Source of the DNA: a virus
Length of the DNA: 41,391 nucleotides
Virus record (IMG/VR): IMGVR_UViG_3300044825_000491
Span: 1 to 41,391 of that record
Direction: 5' to 3' (one strand)
Part shown: positions 2,713 through 41,391 of the stretch, piece after piece
How positions within the stretch are numbered: position 1 is the stretch's first letter
Layout: each line of letters begins with the position of its first letter
Made by a program: the position numbers and the translations under genes
Notes under the pieces: generated by a model
Seen by the model: the letters and a program-made list of their open reading frames with translations, nothing else
What the model was told of the DNA's origin: nothing
Database searches by the model: none

Positions 2713-3320
2713 GGTGGCTCGCCACCCAAACGTTCAACCATCTTCTCCATGATCCTGTCGTCACGTCTGCGGATCGTCCGCTCAGTGACCTCCCACTGCA
2801 CACTCATCACTTCCACCGGAAGGCCACCGTCCTTGTACATGTCGGCAAGGAACTGCTGGTCACGTTTCGGAAGGTAGAAGTAGGCGGATCGAATGTCAGC
2901 GATCATCGCCAACCTGTTGTTACCCTCAGCGGGACGTGACGGTCCACGTAACTCTGACGACGGAGAGTTAGACCCACCAGTCCAGTCGTCCTCATCGAAA
3001 ATGTCAGGCAACAGTTCACGGATCATCTGCGGGGTGTAGTAGAACACGTCACCCGGCTGTAGACCTGACCGCTTGCGTCGCTCCTTGGCGATGATTGTGA
3101 GGCAACGCTGTCGGCAGGCGTTGCGTAGTTTGTTCTGCCCATGCCTGCCTTGCCCGTGCCACAGGACAACCTTGTCCACGTTCTGCACGAGCCACATGTT
3201 CGCCTCAGCGATGAGGTCGTCGGGTGCCACGAGTCCACGACCGGACCTGTTCGCTGACATGGCACCTTGCTTGGCGATCTTCAGATCATTGGGTGTGATG
3301 CTGTCGCCTTCGTCTACCAC
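2700..3320 (-). CDS. Sigma-70-like / phage transcription factor
   Basis: A 206-residue protein starting from a GTG that overlaps the upstream stop by 7 bp. The N-terminal half (LIAEANMWLVQNV, then RQRCLTIIAKERRKRSG) resembles sigma region 2 helices. The C-terminus (about 150-200) has YLPKRDQQFLADMYKDGG then VEVMSVQWEVTERTIRRRDDRIMEKM, a region 4 helix-turn-helix layout. Small sigma-like late activators of this size occur in actinophages. I infer that it redirects host RNA polymerase, possibly to the TATATATA-G5 boxes near the late operon. It could instead be a DNA-binding regulator without core binding. Confidence 0.62.
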   Translation of the reverse strand: MVDEGDSITPNDLKIAKQGAMSANRSGRGLVAPDDLIAEANMWLVQNVDKVVLWHGQGRHGQNKLRNACRQRCLTIIAKERRKRSGLQPGDVFYYTPQMIRELLPDIFDEDDWTGGSNSPSSELRGPSRPAEGNNRLAMIADIRSAYFYLPKRDQQFLADMYKDGGLPVEVMSVQWEVTERTIRRRDDRIMEKMVERLGGEPPWSR

Positions 3321-19945: not shown

Positions 19946-20034
19946 TGGAGCGTGTGGGAGTCGAACCCACGTTAGGCAGAGCCACGGGCCAGTAGTACTG
20001 GGAAACCGTAGGGTACCTCTATCCGATACGCCCC
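19946..20034 (-). ncRNA. tRNA-like element (not a canonical tRNA)
   Basis: 89 nt with a 7-bp acceptor stem (GGGGCGT at 20034-20028 with ACGCTCC at 19953-19947, one G-U), discriminator A and a perfect T-arm (GTGGG-TTCGACT-CCCAC). The middle does not form a D-arm and a 5+7+5 anticodon arm. Instead UAGAG/CUCUG and CUACGG/CCGUGG plus CCAG/CUGG build one long arm, as in the tRNA-like domain of tmRNA. CCA is not encoded. It lies between an internal-protein gene and the scaffold gene. Confidence 0.5.
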
Positions 20035-34299: not shown

Positions 34300-34444
34300 T
34301 TAGGGTAGCCTAACCTAACCGAACCTACCAGATAGGCAATACAGACAACAATACCCTACCTAGTGGGTAGGGAATAGGTGTCATTCCCCACCAAACTAGT
34401 AGGAAATACGGGGAATAAGTGCGGCGGCAGACTAGCCCCCAGAG
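34300..34444. repeat. Short repeats left of the DnaA boxes
   Basis: No gene. Repeated CCTAACC/CTAACCG/GAACCTACC words at 34309-34329, and a 7-bp inverted repeat CCCTACC/GGTAGGG (34354-34372). Iteron-like; may belong to the origin. Confidence 0.4.
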
Positions 34445-34497
34445 TTATCCACAGCCTGTGGATATCTTGTGGATTGTTGTTCATCTTTTGTTCATCT
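34445..34497. other. Candidate replication origin with DnaA boxes
   Basis: A perfect TTATCCACA (34445-34453) faces TGTGGATAT (34457-34465), so the core TATCCACAGCCTGTGGATA is a near-perfect palindrome. A third box TGTGGATTG is at 34468-34476. Then come two direct repeats TTGTTCATCT at 34477 and 34488 (11-bp period). The A/T-rich stretch lies about 200 bp to the left. This is the layout of a bacterial-type origin opened by host DnaA. Confidence 0.6.
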
Positions 34498-34515
34498 GAA
34501 TGTCCGTTTTGTCTG

Positions 34516-34544
34516 TTGACATGATGCCCGCGGGGTGCTACTCT
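34516..34544 (+). promoter_or_regulatory. Sigma-70-type promoter P1 (rightward)
   Basis: TTGACA (34516-34521), 17-nt spacer, TACTCT (34539-34544). First of two tandem promoters reading into the early operon. Confidence 0.55.
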
Positions 34545-34647
34545 AGTTGACGTAAGGGTAGAAAAGTCAATATGGGATCGTGACCTAGTTGCGATACACT
34601 GAAGACGGGCCGCCCGTCGTATCCCCTAGGGAATGTCCCGACTAGAC

Positions 34648-34676
34648 TTGACAAACCTTACAGAGTGTGATAGTGT
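34648..34676 (+). promoter_or_regulatory. Sigma-70-type promoter P2 (rightward)
   Basis: TTGACA (34648-34653), 17-nt spacer, TAGTGT (34671-34676), 49 bp before the first early ATG. It gives a leader with GAAAGGGGA as Shine-Dalgarno. Confidence 0.65.
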
Positions 34677-34724
34677 TAGAACAGTAAGGCAGACAGAGTG
34701 ACAGAGTGAAAGGGGACTGGCATC

Positions 34725-35021
34725 ATGGCGCGCATCACTAGCGCGTCACTGTACGGCAGCGGGACACCTACGGACCTTTCCCGCGTGAACTGGCGTAAGC
34801 CTCCTCGCGCATATGGTCTCCGTAGTGAGTCGGCTCTGGCAGGGTATTATCCTGCCTACGGCTCGCGTCCTAGGCGTCGGACAGTGCGCGAGACTGTAGA
34901 TCCAAGCACTAACCTAGTGGCTCCAGTGGCATCGTTCGATGATGACTTCGTGCCTAGGGTGGTGGCTCCTAGGGTGACTGATGGCCTGGTGCCGGTGATC
35001 CGTATGGGAGAGTGGAACTAA
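34725..35021 (+). CDS. First early protein, 98 aa
   Basis: ATG 9 nt after AAAGGGGA. Basic first half (RVNWRKPPRAYGLRSE, SRPRRRTVRETVD) and a Val/Pro-rich C-terminus (PRVVAPRVTDGLVPVIRMGEWN). No family recognised. As the first gene behind two host-type promoters it would be made early and abundantly, which suits a host-takeover role (inference). Confidence 0.7.
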   Translation: MARITSASLYGSGTPTDLSRVNWRKPPRAYGLRSESALAGYYPAYGSRPRRRTVRETVDPSTNLVAPVASFDDDFVPRVVAPRVTDGLVPVIRMGEWN

Positions 35022-35052
35022 TCTAACCTAGATAGAATGGATGGTGGCAGGC

Positions 35053-35142
35053 ATGGCACGACTAGAGTACGCTGACCACTTGATGGGATCACTATTTGAC
35101 CCTAATCACTGGTGCAAGTATTGTGAGGAGGAGACAGAATGA
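35053..35142 (+). CDS. Tiny Cys-pair protein, 29 aa
   Basis: MARLEYADHLMGSLFDPNHW then CKYCEEETE with one C-x-x-C. The stop overlaps the next ATG (ATGA). An in-frame ATG 12 bp upstream is also possible. Confidence 0.5.
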   Translation: MARLEYADHLMGSLFDPNHWCKYCEEETE

Positions 35143-35264
35143 CCGCGAGGACAGAGTACGTCCCCAGTGGTAGAGGGGACTGTGCACAGTGTCACAGGAC
35201 GTGGTGGTGGTGCCAGTGCAATATTGTGATGGTACCTAACCCTGACTATATTGGAAGGAAATAG
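35139..35264 (+). CDS. Small zinc-ribbon-like protein, 41 aa
   Basis: C-A-Q-C and later C-Q-C around a Trp triplet (GDCAQCHRTWWWCQCNIV). Four Cys plus His would hold one zinc. The stop lies 2 bp before the next ATG. Confidence 0.55.
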   Translation: MTARTEYVPSGRGDCAQCHRTWWWCQCNIVMVPNPDYIGRK

Positions 35265-35265
35265 C

Positions 35266-35448
35266 ATGACGGCTAGAGAGATGGCAAGCATGATCGGTAG
35301 GGAGTTCCTACTGACTGAGGGACCCTTCACCATTAGGGTACTGGTGGATGACGTGAAAGTGTCCTACGGTAACCCTAGGGCGTACGTCGCCCCGGTCGGT
35401 GGTGCTGGATGGGCATGGGTAAATACTGACAGACTGGTGGAGGACTGA
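35266..35448 (+). CDS. Hypothetical protein, 60 aa
   Basis: ATG at 35266 after GGAAGGAAA. A helix (TAREMASMIGREFLLTE) then beta strands (FTIRVLVDDVKVSYGNPRAYV). SH3-like beta content, no family. TGATG overlap with the next gene. Confidence 0.62.
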   Translation: MTAREMASMIGREFLLTEGPFTIRVLVDDVKVSYGNPRAYVAPVGGAGWAWVNTDRLVED

Positions 35449-35672
35449 TGAATAAGCGACACAACGATGGTGAATGGACGCCTAACACTATGGTGCGGCG
35501 TGGTGCCTTGTGGGTACGTAACTACGCCATGCACTACGGTGGTGAGTATGACTACTTCAAGCGTAGTGAACTGCTACTGGCAGCGAAGCATCTACGGCAG
35601 GACGTGCACGCCTATATCCACGAGGTGGAGGAGTCACGGAAACTGTTAGGTGGATTACTGTTAGACCGCTAG
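35448..35672 (+). CDS. Hypothetical protein, 74 aa
   Basis: Helical with many aromatics (LWVRNYAMHYGGEYDYFKRS, then AAKHLRQDVHAYIHEVEESRK). Coupled to the previous gene by TGATG. No family recognised. Confidence 0.65.
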   Translation: MNKRHNDGEWTPNTMVRRGALWVRNYAMHYGGEYDYFKRSELLLAAKHLRQDVHAYIHEVEESRKLLGGLLLDR

Positions 35673-35696
35673 TAACCGACTAGAAAGAGAGAGAGA

Positions 35697-36557
35697 ATGA
35701 ATAAGACAGATCTGGCACAGTATGTGACCGACATGATGGTGGCAGAGTTAGAGAAAGGCCTCGTGCCGTGGCGCAAGCCTTGGTCCGCTGCAGGCTACGT
35801 TCCCACTAGCCTGTCCACTGGCAAGCCTTACCGCGGTGTCAACACTTTCATACTGGCACTGGTGGGACAGTCCAAGGGGTACGAAAGTAACCTATGGACT
35901 ACGTACAAGCAGGCAGCGGAGCGTGGTGGCAACGTCAGGAAGGGCGAAAAGTCCACGACAGTGGTCTATTGGAAGATTCTTGACGTGAAGGATAAGGCTA
36001 CTGGTGAGGATAAGAAAGTGCCATTCCTAAGGCACTTCAACGTGTTCAACCTTGACCAGTGTGACGGCTTGGACGCTTACCGTGGTAAGCCTGAGCCGCG
36101 TACGGTGGTGGTGGAGGATGCGGTGCACGCTACTTGGCAAGGCTACAAGGATGGTCCCACGTTGCGGCATGTGGCTGGTGATCGTGCCTACTACAGTCCG
36201 TCGGATGACCAGATAACAATGCCCCTGGTGGAGTCGTTCCATGATGGTGCAGCGTATGCGGAGACTCTGTTCCATGAGATGACGCATAGCACTGGTCACC
36301 AGTCGAGGCTTGGTAGGCTTGGGGGTAGCGTTGCCGTGGCGGCTTTCGGGTCACCGGACTATGCCAAGGAGGAACTGGTGGCAGAGTTAGGTGCGGTGAT
36401 GCTACTGGGCCATGCTGGTATCCCTGTCGATGCGCAGAATAGTGCATCGTACGTGGGGGGATGGTTGCGTGCACTGCAGGATGACCGTAACCTAATCATC
36501 AGTGCAGCGCAGCAAGCACAGAAGGCTTTTGACCGTATCGTGGGGGATGTAGAGTAG
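35697..36557 (+). CDS. ArdC-like antirestriction protein (ssDNA-binding domain + zinc metallopeptidase)
   Basis: 286 residues. The N-terminal domain (about 1-125) has WRKPW, PTSLSTGKPYRGVN and ARDC-type VRKGEKSTTVVYWK, the ssDNA-binding domain of plasmid ArdC proteins. The C-terminal domain has the zinc motif HEMTHSTGH (193-201) and the downstream YAKEELVAELGAVML segment of the ArdC-associated peptidase. In plasmids ArdC protects incoming ssDNA and cleaves host defence proteins in some reports. Here it would be an early anti-defence protein (inference). Confidence 0.85.
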   Translation: MNKTDLAQYVTDMMVAELEKGLVPWRKPWSAAGYVPTSLSTGKPYRGVNTFILALVGQSKGYESNLWTTYKQAAERGGNVRKGEKSTTVVYWKILDVKDKATGEDKKVPFLRHFNVFNLDQCDGLDAYRGKPEPRTVVVEDAVHATWQGYKDGPTLRHVAGDRAYYSPSDDQITMPLVESFHDGAAYAETLFHEMTHSTGHQSRLGRLGGSVAVAAFGSPDYAKEELVAELGAVMLLGHAGIPVDAQNSASYVGGWLRALQDDRNLIISAAQQAQKAFDRIVGDVE

Positions 36558-36723
36558 AGACTGCCTGACGGGTTAGGGTAGCACCCTAGTCTGGAGGGAC
36601 CGCGCGACAGAGTTGTCACCCGAAAGGGTGGAGGGTGCAAGTCCCTCGCGCGTGGCGATAGTGCCGGATGGAAGGAAGCAAGACGGCGGGTAGGAAAGTG
36701 CCATACCCCTGTCCGGCACTATC
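36558..36723 (+). ncRNA. Structured RNA candidate with four stems
   Basis: This 197-bp gap (to 36754) has no gene but perfect stems: TAGGGT/ACCCTA (36574-36588), CGCGCGA/TCGCGCG (36601-36607 with 36646-36652) enclosing CACCC-GAAA-GGGTG and a T-arm-like GGG-TGCAAGT-CCC, then a 12-bp stem GATAGTGCCGGA/TCCGGCACTATC (36657-36668 with 36712-36723) with an inner GGGTA/TACCC. It is not a tRNA or a recognised riboswitch. It may be a leader regulating the downstream genes or a separate RNA. Confidence 0.55.
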
Positions 36724-36740
36724 ACTACACAATAGACAGA

Positions 36741-36755
36741 ATGGGAGAAAGATAA
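36741..36755 (+). promoter_or_regulatory. Four-codon leader ORF
   Basis: ATG GGA GAA AGA TAA. Its stop overlaps the ATG of the next gene (TAATG), and the GGGAGAAAG inside it is that gene's Shine-Dalgarno. Possibly used for translational coupling; low confidence. Confidence 0.3.
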
Positions 36756-36883
36756 TGCCGAAAGTAACACTGACTAGCGCAGAATGGGATCTCGTTGTTA
36801 TGATCCTGGAGGATGACCGTGGTATCCTGACGCCTGGTATCGTGAAGGATATCAACGCACAACTAGACAGACAGGAAAACTAA
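36755..36883 (+). CDS. Hypothetical protein, 42 aa
   Basis: MPKVTLTSAEWDLVVMILED then RGILTPGIVKDINAQLDRQEN: two helices. The last A of its TAA begins the next ATG (TAATG). Unknown function. Confidence 0.62.
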   Translation: MPKVTLTSAEWDLVVMILEDDRGILTPGIVKDINAQLDRQEN

Positions 36884-37422
36884 TGACGACTAAGACGACG
36901 GCACGCACGTACGTGCGCCGCATGTCTAGATATCTCGATACCGTGACGCCGTACGACATGGAGCGTGCGGCGCAATGGTACAACGATGCACAGACAGTGG
37001 CACAGGACGTGGCGCAACGCATGGGAACTAGCCTAGAGATAGGCGCGTGTGTTGTGTCCGCGTTCTCACCTAGGGTACCGTGGGCACGTAACATTGTTCT
37101 CGCGCTCGCGTACTCTAATGGTGAGGATACGCCCGGACTGGCGAACAACAGGCGCATGGCTGACGCTAGTGTGCGCCTAGGTTTCGATGCGTTGAAGGGT
37201 CCGAAGACTAACGCTTTCGCTCGTGCTATCGCTGGCGATGAGGATGCGGTGGTGGTGGATTCTTGGATGTGTAAGGCTGCTGGTATCGGACGTGACGCGC
37301 CTAGTGCGGTGCAATATCGCCGCATCAGTGAGGCTATCGTGACGCTCGCACGTCGGCACGGTGTGTCACCTCGCACCATGCAGGCTTTGATATGGATTCA
37401 AGTACGAGGAAAGGCTGACTAA
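36883..37422 (+). CDS. Conserved-type phage protein, 179 aa (DUF7178-like)
   Basis: The pattern CVVSAFSPRVPWARNIVLALAY, LKGPKTNAFARAIAGDEDAVVVDSWMCKAAG and AIVTLARRHGVSPRTMQALIW is one I recognise from actinophage and other phage genomes, where it is uncharacterised. The VVSAxSPRxxWxxN helix and VxDxW motif, with an Asp in a fixed place, resemble HhH-type base-excision enzymes, but I cannot confirm catalytic residues. One reading is a DNA-base-processing enzyme; otherwise unknown. Confidence 0.65.
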   Translation: MTTKTTARTYVRRMSRYLDTVTPYDMERAAQWYNDAQTVAQDVAQRMGTSLEIGACVVSAFSPRVPWARNIVLALAYSNGEDTPGLANNRRMADASVRLGFDALKGPKTNAFARAIAGDEDAVVVDSWMCKAAGIGRDAPSAVQYRRISEAIVTLARRHGVSPRTMQALIWIQVRGKAD

Positions 37423-37589
37423 TGTGGCCGGATAGTCCCAACAAGGACTGCCCACGATGCAGGCACATGCGACAGTACGACGACGACTGCACGTTGTGTC
37501 ATGGTGACGGGATCGTGGCATGGAATGTGTACGCTGACGAACCCGAGGAACAGTACGACACGATCAAGGAGTGGAGGGGATTGGCATGA
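37422..37589 (+). CDS. Small zinc-ribbon protein, 55 aa
   Basis: Two Cys pairs: CPRC at 10-13 and CTLC at 23-26, followed by HGDG, a rubredoxin/DnaJ-like knuckle, then an acidic tail (ADEPEEQYDTIKEW). Start and stop overlap neighbours. Confidence 0.62.
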   Translation: MWPDSPNKDCPRCRHMRQYDDDCTLCHGDGIVAWNVYADEPEEQYDTIKEWRGLA

Positions 37590-37684
37590 GACTGACGGAT
37601 CGTGGCAGGTTCGTGGTGACTGTGCTTGTGCTTGTTGTGTTCATTGGTATCTGCTACATTGAGAGTGTTGGAACTATCCAATAG
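37586..37684 (+). CDS. Tiny membrane protein, 32 aa
   Basis: Basic start (MRLTDRGR), then one transmembrane helix (FVVTVLVLVVFIGICYIE). ATGA overlap with the preceding gene. Possibly acts on the host membrane. No family. Confidence 0.55.
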   Translation: MRLTDRGRFVVTVLVLVVFIGICYIESVGTIQ

Positions 37685-37702
37685 AGAGAGAAGGTAGACA
37701 GA

Positions 37703-37828
37703 ATGTTTCGGATCAACTGCATTGACTGCGGGAAAGCAACAACGACAGAGACAGCGAAGGCTATGCGGGAACATGCAACGTCCGTGTATTCGTTCCTGTG
37801 TGGGACATGCCACGAGGGAAGGGAGTGA
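37703..37828 (+). CDS. Small zinc-ribbon protein, 41 aa
   Basis: Two Cys pairs (CIDC at 6-9, CGTC at 33-36) around a helix (TTTETAKAMREHATS). The start follows AGACAGA instead of a strong Shine-Dalgarno. Confidence 0.6.
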   Translation: MFRINCIDCGKATTTETAKAMREHATSVYSFLCGTCHEGRE

Positions 37829-37831
37829 GCC

Positions 37832-38011
37832 GTGCACAAGATTGAGAGAGACAAGGACCGACGCACCTATGTTGTGTACCGTGGTGACATGTACCTTGGT
37901 CACGCGAAAACAGAGAGGCAGGCTGACGCGATTGTCGCTAGTGACCTGATGATGATGGATCAGATCGCTAGGATGCGTGAGCGTTACCCGCTACGAATGG
38001 AGACAGAATGA
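37832..38011 (+). CDS. Hypothetical protein, 59 aa
   Basis: GTG start. Charged strand-turn-strand (KDRRTYVVYRGDMYLGHA), then a helix (TERQADAIVASDLMMMDQIA). No family. ATGA overlap with the next gene. Confidence 0.58.
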   Translation: MHKIERDKDRRTYVVYRGDMYLGHAKTERQADAIVASDLMMMDQIARMRERYPLRMETE

Positions 38012-38160
38012 TTGACCATATTTGTTGGACTGACGACACGTACTGCGAGGATTGTGGCCCCATCACTACGCCACTGCTGGACCATGAGCCTGCGTGGAAC
38101 TCATTCCTTGACCACTATGCGAAGATATTCGGTTACGACAGACAGAAGGAGGAAGCATGA
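38008..38160 (+). CDS. Small Cys-pair protein, 50 aa
   Basis: MIDHICWTDDTYCEDCGPIT has three Cys and one His; the rest is an amphipathic helix (AWNSFLDHYAKIFGYD). It starts after AGACAGA. ATGA overlap at the end. Confidence 0.57.
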   Translation: MIDHICWTDDTYCEDCGPITTPLLDHEPAWNSFLDHYAKIFGYDRQKEEA

Positions 38161-38450
38161 GTACGGTTTACATTTACGAGGTTGATGCTGGTCCCGCTGG
38201 TATGTACTGGGAGGGAGTGAACCTTCCCGACGACTACCCGATCACAACATGGACCGACATGGCACAACTTGGCCGTGACATCATGGAACTATCGGGTGAG
38301 GGGCACGAGGTTATTGTGAGGTCACATGCCTGGTTTGTAACTAACAACTGCCATTGGTGCGGGACTGATTTTGACGTGAAAATGTATGGTATTGCGAACA
38401 TGCTTTGCGAGGAATGTGGCGATGACTACGACAGGGGGGTTCAGTTCTGA
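38157..38450 (+). CDS. Zinc-ribbon-ended protein, 97 aa
   Basis: Strand/helix N-terminus (TVYIYEVDAGPAGMYWEGV, MAQLGRDIMELSGEGHEVIV) and a C-terminal zinc ribbon with CHWCG and CEECG separated by 17 residues. No family. Ends one base into the next ATG. Confidence 0.64.
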   Translation: MSTVYIYEVDAGPAGMYWEGVNLPDDYPITTWTDMAQLGRDIMELSGEGHEVIVRSHAWFVTNNCHWCGTDFDVKMYGIANMLCEECGDDYDRGVQF

Positions 38451-38599
38451 TGCCGTTCACGTTCGTGTTCACCGACAAGCAACTAAGCATCATCGAAGAA
38501 GCGTTAGATTGGATGATCGTTCGCGGTGACGGGGCACCGTTCTCCGTGTACGATATTGCCGAACTGCAGGGTCAGATAGAGAAACGATTGGAGTGGTGA
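38450..38599 (+). CDS. Hypothetical protein, 49 aa
   Basis: MPFTFVFTDKQLSIIEEALD then FSVYDIAELQGQIEKRLEW: two amphipathic helices. TGATG overlap. Resembles small phage proteins that bind a partner helix, but unassigned. Confidence 0.57.
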   Translation: MPFTFVFTDKQLSIIEEALDWMIVRGDGAPFSVYDIAELQGQIEKRLEW

Positions 38600-38602
38600 G
38601 GA

Positions 38603-38704
38603 GTGGGTGAGTATCTTGGTGCGTGGCAGTGCATACACTGCGAGGCACTACTGAACGATCAACAACACAACGAATGCGACAGATGTAGAGAGGACTCGAA
38701 GTGA
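38603..38704 (+). CDS. Tiny zinc-ribbon protein, 33 aa
   Basis: GTG start. Almost only a zinc knuckle: CIHC and CDRC 13 residues apart. The stop overlaps the next GTG. Confidence 0.52.
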   Translation: MGEYLGAWQCIHCEALLNDQQHNECDRCREDSK

Positions 38705-38919
38705 GTAAGCAGCAGGACGCATACGTGGCACAACTACTTGGCCGCGTCATGCACCACTCGTGGTGTGACCACAAGAACAGCACCCCACGCAAATACCCAT
38801 ACGTGGACGCCGGTTCACAGGACTACGCGACTATCGCGGTGCGTATGCTTGGGTATGACGAGGACGCTATCAGTGAACTGGAGGCTGAGTTGCGTAGGCT
38901 TGGTGATGACGTTGATTAG
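38701..38919 (+). CDS. Hypothetical protein, 72 aa
   Basis: GTG start. Helical (SKQQDAYVAQLLGRVMHHSW; AISELEAELRRLGDDVD) with a CDHK turn. GTGA overlap with the previous gene. Unknown. Confidence 0.6.
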   Translation: MSKQQDAYVAQLLGRVMHHSWCDHKNSTPRKYPYVDAGSQDYATIAVRMLGYDEDAISELEAELRRLGDDVD

Positions 38920-39052
38920 GGTGAAGGTGCATGGCACTGACATTATCCCTGAGTATTACCATTTCGACACGGATGAGGAGGCTATGACGTGGCTGGTGCG
39001 TAACACGTCGGACTGCATCAAGGAGATCAGTGTGAGTGTGGTGGCGGTATGA
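38906..39052 (+). CDS. Hypothetical protein, 48 aa
   Basis: ATG inside the end of the previous gene. Strands around IRVKVHGTDIIPEYYHFDTD and KEISVSVVAV with one helix between, like a small dimerising beta-alpha-beta unit. ATGA overlap with whiB. Confidence 0.52.
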   Translation: MTLIRVKVHGTDIIPEYYHFDTDEEAMTWLVRNTSDCIKEISVSVVAV

Positions 39053-39285
39053 GGTACGAGGATGTGCGTTGGGAGGATGCTGCCTGTAGGGGCACTGACA
39101 CTGAGGCGTTCTATCCGATCAACGGGCTGCCGATGCAGACTGTTATCCGTATTTGTCAGGGTTGCCCTATTCGTAACGATTGTGCGTCGTACGCTATTGA
39201 GCATGAGCAGTATGGGTATTGGGCGAACATGGCTGAGATCACGAGGCGTGAGATCAGGATGGGTAGGAGGAAACGTGCGGCCTAA
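39049..39285 (+). CDS. whiB-like: WhiB-family iron-sulfur transcription regulator
   Basis: 78 residues with the WhiB cysteine spacing C13-x22-C36-x2-C39-x5-C45 (AACRGTDTEAFYP ... ICQGCPIRNDC). The core continues SYAIEHEQYGYWANM, with GYWAN in the place of the usual GVWGG turn, and ends in a basic AT-hook-like tail (RREIRMGRRKR). Host WhiB proteins carry a 4Fe-4S cluster and bind sigma factor region 4. Phage WhiB (e.g. WhiB-TM4) blocks host WhiB2 and septation. This marks an actinobacterial host. Confidence 0.9.
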   Translation: MRYEDVRWEDAACRGTDTEAFYPINGLPMQTVIRICQGCPIRNDCASYAIEHEQYGYWANMAEITRREIRMGRRKRAA

Positions 39286-39556
39286 AGTGTCGGAGATTAG
39301 AAAGATAACAGCGTTACTAGACAGACAGTGGGACGACGTAGACGAACTAGCCAAGAACGTACTCTCCGAAGCATTCGACATGGCTGGGGAACGTGACCAG
39401 TGGGTCGTGATCATGCAGGATGATAGGCTGGGCACGTTCGTGTTCGGCCCGTACGAAACAGAGAACAAGGCACGCAAGGCGATAGGCACAGAGATAGTGT
39501 CTGCTGGCCCTGACCCTGCGCGTGGACTTGTGCGACGGATTAGGAGAGCAACATGA
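39275..39556 (+). CDS. Hypothetical protein, 93 aa
   Basis: GTG start 11 bp inside whiB. The first half is helical (VSEIRKITALLDRQWDDVDELAKNVL), the second a strand pair (WVVIMQDDRLGTFVFGPYET) then ENKARKAIGTEIV. This resembles small phage proteins of unknown role. Coupled to both neighbours. Confidence 0.6.
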   Translation: MRPKVSEIRKITALLDRQWDDVDELAKNVLSEAFDMAGERDQWVVIMQDDRLGTFVFGPYETENKARKAIGTEIVSAGPDPARGLVRRIRRAT

Positions 39557-39933
39557 TCGAGGCACTATTCATGGTCCCAACCGACGACATACCGGAGTAT
39601 AAGGTTCCTGCCGTGTACCGTGAGTATGAGCGGTGCGTGGCCGAACGTGAGTCGAACAGTAGGCCGGAGGCGGTGTCGCCTAGCGGTAAGTACCGTGGCA
39701 TGTACCAGTTCGATGACGCACTGGCTGACGGCACCACCTACCACATCATTGACTGGCTGGGGACGTGGCATTCACACCCGAAGCAGTACGCTGCCGCACT
39801 GCGTGACACGCCCATGAACAAATGGCCCCGCCAGGTGCAGACGGCTGCGTTTGTTGCCGTGTTAGATGGTCACGATAAGGATGTTCGGTGGTATGGTAAG
39901 GATCATTTTCGTGGAGGGAGATGGACATGCTGA
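39553..39933 (+). CDS. Rpf/lysozyme-like protein
   Basis: 126 residues. YRECERC-type start: CVAERESNSRPEAVSPSG then KYRGMYQFDDALADG matches resuscitation-promoting-factor/lysozyme-like domains (C-x-x-R-E-S...G-x-Y/L-Q-F), with Glu31 or Glu33 as the likely catalytic acid. There is no signal peptide or transmembrane helix. It lies in the early operon, away from the endolysin, so it may act as a virion-associated or regulatory muralytic enzyme. The C-terminal half is shorter than in bacterial Rpf. Confidence 0.62.
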   Translation: MIEALFMVPTDDIPEYKVPAVYREYERCVAERESNSRPEAVSPSGKYRGMYQFDDALADGTTYHIIDWLGTWHSHPKQYAAALRDTPMNKWPRQVQTAAFVAVLDGHDKDVRWYGKDHFRGGRWTC

Positions 39934-40229
39934 AAAAGTGGAGGACCAAAAAGTCCTTATTTTTCAACGGTTTTTCGACACACCCACTGCCGTGGATGCA
40001 GCACCTCGCTGCCGTGGATAACCGTGCAGACTACCGTGGAGTCCCCACCTACGTCTGCCCTTGCGGGTACGACATGTTCCTCATCGCCACTAGGTTTGAT
40101 GAGACACAGATGCCAGCGTGGTACCTGCTGGATGGTGTGTGTGCGTCGTGCGGTGCACTCGTCACGGTGCCTTGCCCTGCGGATGGTGATGACCCGCTGG
40201 AGGTGAACGATGACATGTCGCTCATGTAA
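39927..40229 (+). CDS. Zinc-ribbon protein, 100 aa
   Basis: I chose the ATG at 39927, 6 nt after GGAGGGAG, overlapping the previous gene; the ATG at 39921 is too close to that site. The central part has CPCG and, 30 residues later, CASCG plus a further Cys (YVCPCGYDMFLIATRF ... GVCASCGALVTVPC). The first 23 codons are Lys/Phe-rich and include a terminator-like stem, unlike the rest, so the true N-terminus may be later (ATG at 39996). Confidence 0.6.
   Translation: MLKKWRTKKSLFFNGFSTHPLPWMQHLAAVDNRADYRGVPTYVCPCGYDMFLIATRFDETQMPAWYLLDGVCASCGALVTVPCPADGDDPLEVNDDMSLM
39942..39964 (+). terminator. Terminator-like hairpin inside a coding region
   Basis: AGGAC-CAAAAA-GTCCT followed by TATTTTT. It has the form of an intrinsic terminator but lies within codons 6-13 of the gene at 39927. 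It could act as an attenuator for the distal early genes. Confidence 0.35.
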
Positions 40230-40380
40230 GACAGCGAACATTATCAACGAGCGTGGCATCGCACACATGGGTAGGGGTGAGTTGCGTGCAGCGCAGACGG
40301 CATTCACGCAGGCGGAGTTCATGCACGAGGAGTGCCTTGGTAGGTGCGATTGTGGTCACAAGATTGGGGAGGAACAGTGA
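40210..40380 (+). CDS. Small zinc-binding-like protein, 56 aa
   Basis: CRSC at 3-6 and CLGRCDCGH near the end, linked by a helix (GELRAAQTAFTQAEFMHE). Starts inside the previous gene and its stop overlaps the next GTG. Confidence 0.57.
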   Translation: MTCRSCKTANIINERGIAHMGRGELRAAQTAFTQAEFMHEECLGRCDCGHKIGEEQ

Positions 40381-40703
40381 AGATCCGTATTACTGGTTTC
40401 GCTATGGCAACAGCGGACGTGCGTACGTTGGGTGACTTGCGTGAGTTTGTTCGATGGCTGGACAAACACAACGTAGATGACCGCCGTGAGGTGGAGGCTG
40501 GTGAGGTGATGTACGTGTCGCTGCAGGACACGACTGAGGGTGACACTGCAGAGTTCATTGAGTGTGGTGACCACATCCCACCGGACAAGGCGTTTGACGT
40601 GGTGATGAACACGCACAAGCACCGTGAGCAGCCGCCTGCCGATATTCCCCAGTTTGATTGGGTTACTCGTGACAGGTACAACGACCCTGGTAGGCCGGAG
40701 TGA
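40377..40703 (+). CDS. Hypothetical protein, 108 aa
   Basis: GTG start. Beta-alpha start (KIRITGFAMATADVRTLGDL REFVRWLDKHN), then EAGEVMYVSLQDTTEGD and a disordered Pro-rich tail (REQPPADIPQFDW). No family. Coupled to both neighbours. Confidence 0.6.
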   Translation: MKIRITGFAMATADVRTLGDLREFVRWLDKHNVDDRREVEAGEVMYVSLQDTTEGDTAEFIECGDHIPPDKAFDVVMNTHKHREQPPADIPQFDWVTRDRYNDPGRPE

Positions 40704-40795
40704 AACAGTTCTACGGCAAGTGGAAGTTCTCTAAGAAGCGTAACGCTTGGGTGTGGAAGTGGAAGAAGCGGAAGGTGAAGAAGCGTGAGGATTGA
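40700..40795 (+). CDS. Tiny basic protein, 31 aa
   Basis: GTG start. MKQFYGKWKFSKKRNAWVWK then WKKRKVKKRED: nearly half Lys/Arg plus five Trp/Tyr. A nucleic-acid- or membrane-active peptide by composition; otherwise unknown. Confidence 0.5.
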   Translation: MKQFYGKWKFSKKRNAWVWKWKKRKVKKRED

Positions 40796-40868
40796 CCCTA
40801 TCGTGATGCTCGCTGCTATCGGTGTGGCTGCATCCATCCTGTCCATACTGATCCTGCTGATGCTATGA
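40785..40868 (+). CDS. Tiny membrane protein, 27 aa
   Basis: GTG start inside the previous gene. MRIDPIVMLAAIGVAASILS then ILILLML is a single transmembrane helix. ATGA overlap with the glycosyltransferase start. Confidence 0.48.
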   Translation: MRIDPIVMLAAIGVAASILSILILLML

Positions 40869-41391
40869 GAGTCGGCTTCGTAGCGGAAGACATGCTGCTA
40901 GACCAAGGCATACTCCGACCATCAGGATGCTCCTACTACCGTTGCCTACTGCCACGCAACACGCTACGCAACGCAGACACAGCCTTCGGACCGCCAGCCT
41001 TCGCCACCGAACACGGCTTCGGTGTCCGATTGAACAGGTCACAGGCCAGGTTCGGGTTCGACGTGATCGTGATGAAGATGCTGATGCACAGGTGGGTGCC
41101 GACACAGATCAAGCAGGCACAAGACCTGGGTCAGATCGTGGTCGTAGACGTAGACGACTACTACCCTGGACTGCACCAGGCTAACCTTGCGTACGAGATC
41201 ACCGACCCTGAGAAGAACAAGGTCGCCAACCGTGACCACTACCAGGCTGTGATCATGGCCGCTGACTGGGTGACCGTGACGACACCGTTCCTGCGTGACT
41301 ACTATTCGCAGTTCCGTGACAACGTGGTGATGATACGTAACGGCATCAACCCTGACCAGTTCGTGAAGCATGAGGTGAAGAACCGTAAGCC
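40865..41391 (+). CDS. GT-B glycosyltransferase, N-terminal part (continues at position 128)
   Basis: Starts with the ATG at 40865 and reads to the window end, then continues in frame from base 128. MRVGFVAEDMLLDQGILRPS is a Rossmann N-domain. SYYRCLLP and RFGFDVIVMKMLMHRW follow, then IVVDVDDYYPGLHQAN, a D-x-D-D segment common in phage-encoded GTs. The whole protein is 367 residues (40865-41264 joined to 1-704). Last gene of the rightward operon. Confidence 0.78.
   Translation, partial: MRVGFVAEDMLLDQGILRPSGCSYYRCLLPRNTLRNADTAFGPPAFATEHGFGVRLNRSQARFGFDVIVMKMLMHRWVPTQIKQAQDLGQIVVVDVDDYYPGLHQANLAYEITDPEKNKVANRDHYQAVIMAADWVTVTTPFLRDYYSQFRDNVVMIRNGINPDQFVKHEVKNRK
41265..41391. repeat. Direct terminal repeat, right copy
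   Basis: Identical to bases 1-127. Joining the copies restores an uninterrupted glycosyltransferase frame. Confidence 0.93.

Follow-up and report, generated by a model that had tools for sequence, protein, structure and literature searches.

A covarying RNA with a tRNA-shaped junction forms an accessory cassette among the early genes of probably actinobacterial phages

We analyzed IMG/VR virus record IMGVR_UViG_3300044825_000491 over its whole length (positions 1 to 41,391; 41,391 bases), which is called the window here. The window terminase is nearest to those of Streptomyces phages (47% identity) and a WhiB-like gene is encoded, so an actinobacterial host is likely. The early genes lie on the + strand. 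A gap of 197 nt (36558-36754) separates the gene for an ArdC-type protein (PF08401 and PF18818) from a gene whose ATG is at 36755, and the second gene 3′ of the gap encodes a DUF7178 protein. Four early-region gaps in the ORF list exceed 100 nt (117, 197, 113 and 101 nt; these lengths vary with the chosen start codons). The 197-nt gap is the longest and the sole one with a fold z below -2, which agrees with an earlier note, made from the sequence alone, that had singled it out.

The gap holds a compact folded RNA, whose parts are listed in Table 1. All parts described in the earlier note were present: the perfect 12-bp stem, the 7-bp stem enclosing the GAAA hairpin and the T-arm, and a further hairpin, which corresponds either to the P1 core or to the hairpin nested in the 12-bp stem. 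The D-like arm had been missed. This arm turns the enclosed part into a four-way junction whose helices are separated by 0, 0, 0 and 1 unpaired nt. A single spacer A separates P1 from the junction.

Table 1. Parts of the RNA in the window
Feature	Position	Strand	Description and basis
AGACTGCC box	36558..36565	+	Left cassette edge; invariant in three distinct copies (alignment, junction comparison)
Hairpin P1	36564..36598	+	Outer CCT pairs with AGG or GGG; covariation, hand matching
P1 core	36573-36578 with 36584-36589	+	TTAGGG with CCCTAG, loop TAGCA; covariation, hand matching
Four-way junction, tRNA-shaped core	36600..36655	+	Covariation, fold, strict descriptor
Closing 7-bp stem	36600-36606 with 36649-36655	+	CCGCGCG with CGCGTGG; G.U is the third pair
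D-like arm	36607..36616	+	ACA-GAGT-TGT; 3 bp, 4-nt loop
Second (variable) arm	36617..36630	+	CACCC-GAAA-GGGTG; 5 bp, GAAA loop
T-arm	36631..36647	+	GAGGG-TGCAAGT-CCCTC; 5 bp, 7-nt loop; loop identical in three copies
Third hairpin	36657..36723	+	12-bp perfect stem, 36657-36668 with 36712-36723
Third-hairpin interior	36669-36711	+	43 nt; nested GGGTA/TACCC hairpin at about 36688-36708; window copy only
AGACAG leader box	36734..36739	+	Right edge; precedes ribosome-binding region and ATG of next gene (36755)

The whole gap folds at -86.1 kcal/mol with a z of -5.16, and none of 200 dinucleotide shuffles folded as well. A second estimate of z was -4.57. The reverse strand gave about the same value (z -5.13), as expected because the stems are near-perfect. 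We assigned the RNA to the + strand because all three distinct copies described below share one gene direction and because of the G.U pairs. When the 57 nt are folded in isolation, the cloverleaf comes out best (z -3.51). For the whole 197 nt as a single sequence, and for 36557-36700, the best structure departs from the exact cloverleaf. A strict descriptor of the four-way junction matched once in the window and never in 100 dinucleotide shuffles of the window on both strands. Over 2.04 Mb of loci its matches were exactly the three distinct sequences, the same three RNAs from which it had been built.

Other structured stretches were seen in these phages. On the minus strand of the window, a second tRNA-like stretch (19946-20034, fold z -1.98) occupies a gap between late genes. 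It has a 7-bp acceptor-like stem (GGGGCGT/ACGCTCC), a canonical-looking T-arm (GTGGG-TTCGACT-CCCAC) and an odd middle. ARAGORN made no call on it, and its sequence GGGTTCGANTCCC had no match in 10 related records. It could represent an attP site, made of the 3′ half of a tRNA, or a tRNA that has decayed. Other intergenic gaps contain strong, perfect hairpins that lack a T-run (L059:463-515, L002:2435-2490, L072 about 3040-3110, L002:2760-2845, L005:1867-1930 and L059:1235-1275). One form, CCTAGTCTCG...GGGGC(A/G)GGGTGCCTAGCCCTAA, recurs among these hairpins, which may mark mRNA ends or sites of processing.

The family comprises three distinct sequences, found in four records. Besides the window these are IMGVR_3300047557_000833 (L005), whose near-copy IMGVR_3300044825_000637 (L004) has the same element, and IMGVR_3300042939_000054 (L059). 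The L005 and L004 matches came from BLAST of the gap against loci fetched via the DUF7178 gene, and they lie at a different genome position than in the window. L059 came from an IMG/VR pattern scan. All three distinct copies have the same order of parts with near-identical spacing: AGACTGCC, P1, spacer A, four-way junction and third hairpin, which precedes an AGACAG-type leader (AGACGG in L005). In P1, (T/C)TAGGG and CCCTAG form the core, the loop is TnGCn, and CC(G/T) pairs on the outside. The D-like arm always has 3 bp and a loop of GAGT or CAGT. The T-arm always has 5 bp and the loop UGCAAGU, and it is followed by one nt before the closing strand. The third acceptor pair is invariably G.U. 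The third hairpin has 8 to 12 pairs, and its loop is 3 nt in the other two distinct copies versus the 43 extra nt in the window. The order and the z of about -5 bear out the earlier proposal of a structured RNA with fixed order. In L005 the element is also closed by CUGCC paired to GGCAG on the 3′ side. This pairing is weaker in the other two copies, and we do not claim it.

The three copies were aligned with MAFFT on sequence alone, with no structure input. RNAalifold on this alignment gave 33 pairs, of which 11 changed on both sides with pairing retained. Pairing held in 95.9% of the alignment cells, and none of 500 shuffles reached any of five measures. When the partners were slid as a control, 31-53% were paired and the two-sided pairs numbered 0 or 1. 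Hand matching gave a two-sided change in 11 of 29 pairs, with one pair broken in one copy and the others invariant or changed on one side. By element, both sides changed in three of the seven pairs of the closing stem, in all five pairs of the second arm (where sequence and loop length differ among copies), in one of the five T-arm pairs and in the outer third pair of P1. The first pair of the D-like arm is A-T, G-C and C-G across the copies. Its third pair is broken (A.G) in L005, and the best fold of L059 leaves this arm open. Covariation strongly supports the cloverleaf as the probable fold, as the agreement of three sequences and not as a phylogenetic test. The earlier note had made covariation the deciding check on its structured RNA; it is present, in only three distinct sequences.

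To our knowledge, structured noncoding RNAs have seldom been described as movable phage accessory genes. Here the three copies lie between different genes: ardC and a 42-aa gene in the window, a 75-aa and a 43-aa gene in L005, and a 55-aa and an 85-aa gene in L059. The three next genes (42, 43 and 85 aa) are mutually dissimilar by tblastn. Genes precede the cassette in every copy, and its orientation is that of the genes in all three. Two of these junctions also occur unoccupied in relatives. The ardC gene of L005 is joined at its end directly to ACAGAATGGGAGA, the sequence that lies right of the RNA in the window, and the ArdC C-terminus reads ...IGTEWETK versus ...VGDVE in the window. The L059 junction occurs without the RNA, as ...GCCTAGCCCTAACCGACAGAGAGAGG, in L070 (same contig as L002) and L072. 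Different neighbor genes and two empty junctions mark the RNA as a discrete accessory cassette and not the leader of one gene. Of 12 virus records with a conserved 102-aa early protein, three carry the RNA and nine, which may be fragments, do not. Comparison of copies and junctions shows a folded RNA under selection, which is discrete, accessory, single in each record and in sense orientation.

The cassette ends in similar motifs, AGACTG on the left and AGACAG or AGACGG on the right. AGACAG occurs 14 times on the + strand and not once on the - strand of 34400-40900, where 2.1 are expected from mononucleotide shuffles. These boxes often lie shortly before start codons, and also before many genes without the RNA. 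A coding-strand bias was also seen in relatives L069, L070 and L073 (8, 13 and 6 to 0).

To find further relatives, we made a covariance model from the three distinct copies, which by construction score 111-121 bits themselves. Each record with the RNA gave one match. Nothing else scored above 24 bits in 25, 79, 72 and 43 sources, 16 records and 396 genomes. IMG/VR pattern scans and protein scans found only three other records among the matches listed, and a stem check of 52 pattern-scan stretches found the structure in three records (identical sequences shown once). Searched by BLAST against GenBank phages and PLSDB plasmids, the element had no match or only 21-bp matches, and our literature search found no comparable RNA. 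Several candidates were rejected. L115 matched a looser descriptor weakly and was dropped by the strict one. The strict descriptor also rejected L211, the best covariance-model match (20.3 bits) among 23 genome stretches, and a match of 23.5 bits (E 0.008) among the 396 genomes, from the phylum of a Kitasatospora record. The latter was taken as chance because so many genomes were searched. An 18-bit match in L007 is an ordinary tRNA-Leu by eye. On the minus strand, L223:3965-3995 has a T-arm (GTGGG-TGCAAGT-CCCAC) whose loop is the same, and it lies a short way upstream of a gene that is tRNA-like by eye. The other cassette parts are absent there, and it is perhaps an unusual phage tRNA.

We compared the RNA with known classes. 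No Rfam 15 family reached its gathering cut-off, and cmscan to E 10 of the three distinct copies gave nothing usable and no tRNA match. The names below threshold included FMN at 13 bits against a cut-off of 66.2 (window only), a tymovirus tRNA-like element at 12.8 bits in L005, scr5239 in L059, miRNA models and others. They were taken as chance because they differ from copy to copy. ARAGORN found no tRNA or tmRNA in the window and 7 loci, so a tmRNA (tRNA-like domain plus tag reading frame) was rejected. The earlier statement that no known class is recognizable agrees with both searches.

The T-arm likeness pointed out before is real, and it extends further than described. The acceptor of 7 bp, T-stem of 5 bp and T-loop of 7 nt have the lengths of a tRNA acceptor/T-arm half in all three distinct copies, with the one nt between T-arm and acceptor 3′ strand breaking the stack. 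A G.U at the third acceptor pair is the alanine identity mark of tRNA-Ala and tmRNA. The tRNA consensus has a UUCRA T-loop and a D-arm with GG in a loop of 8-11 nt. Neither was present in the copies, which have UGCAAGU and a 3-bp arm with GAGT or CAGT. An anticodon loop of 7 nt with U33 was also absent. The second-arm loops have 4, 7 and 6 nt, and A is the second nt of the 7-nt loop (CACCATG, L005). A CCA end is lacking. Membership of the tRNA family was rejected on the finder, the T-loop, the D-loop GG and the anticodon loop. Staphylococcal cell-wall tRNA-Gly has a GUGC T-arm. We gave this likeness no weight, since the available part of PMC4052509 describes other features, namely T-stem pairs and loss of G18G19.

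Because the RNA occurs once in each record that carries it, is accessory and keeps to no particular gene, we infer that the RNA itself is the product, and for this reason a trans-acting product is favored over a riboswitch or a general processing signal. Our preferred reading, held tentatively and at somewhat less than an even chance, is a stand-alone early RNA cassette of probably actinobacterial phages that would mimic tRNA in trans and would be transcribed within the early operon transcript. In the window no promoter-like site was found at the left edge of the cassette, so co-transcription with the early operon is likely. Host tRNA-type processing, measuring the 12-bp stack of acceptor and T-arm, would free the RNA from this transcript. 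The ruler of host tRNA enzymes (RNase P, RNase Z) reads the acceptor/T-arm half, according to the available part of PMC4810234. The freed RNA would mimic tRNA and occupy a host tRNA-binding or tRNA-cutting protein. The cassette would move between phages as a module, and recombination at the short AGACAG leader boxes is the probable route that we suggest. However, the number of distinct sequences (three), the interrupted stack, the lack of a tRNA call by ARAGORN or Rfam, and the best folds that depart from the exact cloverleaf (whole gap and 36557-36700) or leave the D-like arm open (L059) count against a trans mimic. Host tRNA enzymes may also reject the RNA because it has no CCA end, no D-loop GG and no UUCRA T-loop. 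A more specific form of this reading is unlikely: an anticodon-less mobile tRNA mimic, matured by the host and perhaps charged, that would have no part in translation and would instead decoy tRNA-cutting defence systems or tRNA-handling proteins. It draws on the 12-bp acceptor/T-arm ruler, the invariant third-pair G.U and a UGCAA T-loop unlike those of translating tRNAs. Anti-defence RNA, as proposed earlier, is a possible role.

The main rival is a cis-acting operon element, either an antiterminator (put/EAR-like) or an element of mRNA processing or stability. We regard it as quite possible, and an RNA antiterminator fits nearly as well as the trans mimic, since a cis element would give an equally single, gene-independent placement. 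The sense orientation inside the early operon, the missing promoter-like site, the single copy close to the beginning of the early genes and the strong hairpins in other intergenic gaps of these phages all suit such an element. Nevertheless, the operon does not seem to need the RNA, because nine of the 12 related records (possibly fragments) are without it. Genes precede the RNA in all three copies, and it has no Rfam match.

Two other roles had been named in the earlier note, and neither fared well. A riboswitch or other ligand-sensing leader controlling the next gene is improbable. It would account for the multi-way junction and for the 5-bp T-arm, whose loop is of the type that the available part of PMC2258182 describes for AdoCbl and FMN riboswitches (U, GNR triloop, A, two bulged nt). 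However, the copies adjoin different genes, the same junctions are empty in relatives, the gene next to the L059 copy has relatives without the RNA, and no Rfam riboswitch reached its cut-off. Membership of the AdoCbl or FMN class was rejected because the covariance models fail and the neighbor genes differ, although the T-loop is of the same type. We consider it very improbable that the RNA is a self-cleaving ribozyme or moves by itself. Such an element could be read from the similar end motifs and the empty sites, but no Rfam ribozyme reached its cut-off, nothing positive speaks for a ribozyme, and the right-hand motif is the leader box of many genes without the RNA. What stands of the earlier interpretation is a structured, covarying RNA of no known class. 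There is also a slight chance that a decayed phage tRNA gene was kept by chance or as a recombination edge. The acceptor and T-arm have tRNA length, and Immanuel3, a related Streptomyces phage, has 22 annotated tRNA genes. Against decay, the attached P1 hairpin is equally conserved, no anticodon loop is present, and the compensating changes indicate that the fold is still maintained.

With the fold, the covariation and the natural empty sites, the cassette edges are known and the cassette can be transferred into laboratory strains. Should it prove to be a tRNA mimic, it would offer a compact means of finding which host tRNA-handling or defence protein is targeted. As an antiterminator, it would represent a new class of RNA that acts on RNA polymerase, probably that of actinobacteria.

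Four known systems invite comparison. In the put RNA of phage HK022 and the EAR RNA of eps operons, the nascent fold binds RNA polymerase, which then passes later terminators. Like them, the present RNA is compact, promoterless and near an operon front, and EAR also sits between two genes. However, their secondary structure is different, and related phages whose early genes are the same do not carry the present RNA. Phages P1 and P7 encode C4 RNA, an antisense RNA that RNase P frees from an operon transcript. Both are phage RNAs within an operon transcript, whereas C4 is antisense with a different structure, and release of the present RNA by RNase P is a prediction. With tRNA and viral tRNA-like structures it shares the 7-bp acceptor-like stem, the 5-bp T-arm, the 7-nt loop and the closed fold of four arms. 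It differs from tRNA in its UGCAAGU T-loop, its GG-less 3-bp D-like arm and the lack of an anticodon and CCA. It also adds the P1 and third hairpins and is a mobile cassette in an operon. With the AdoCbl and FMN riboswitch arms, as far as the available part of PMC2258182 describes them, it shares a 5-bp arm capped by the same type of T-loop. In contrast to these riboswitches, its T-arm is the last arm of the junction, it lacks a conserved riboswitch core and an Rfam match, and it is not linked to a gene. By the Rfam and tRNA-finder tests, it is a new RNA family within the broader tRNA-like or T-loop RNAs.
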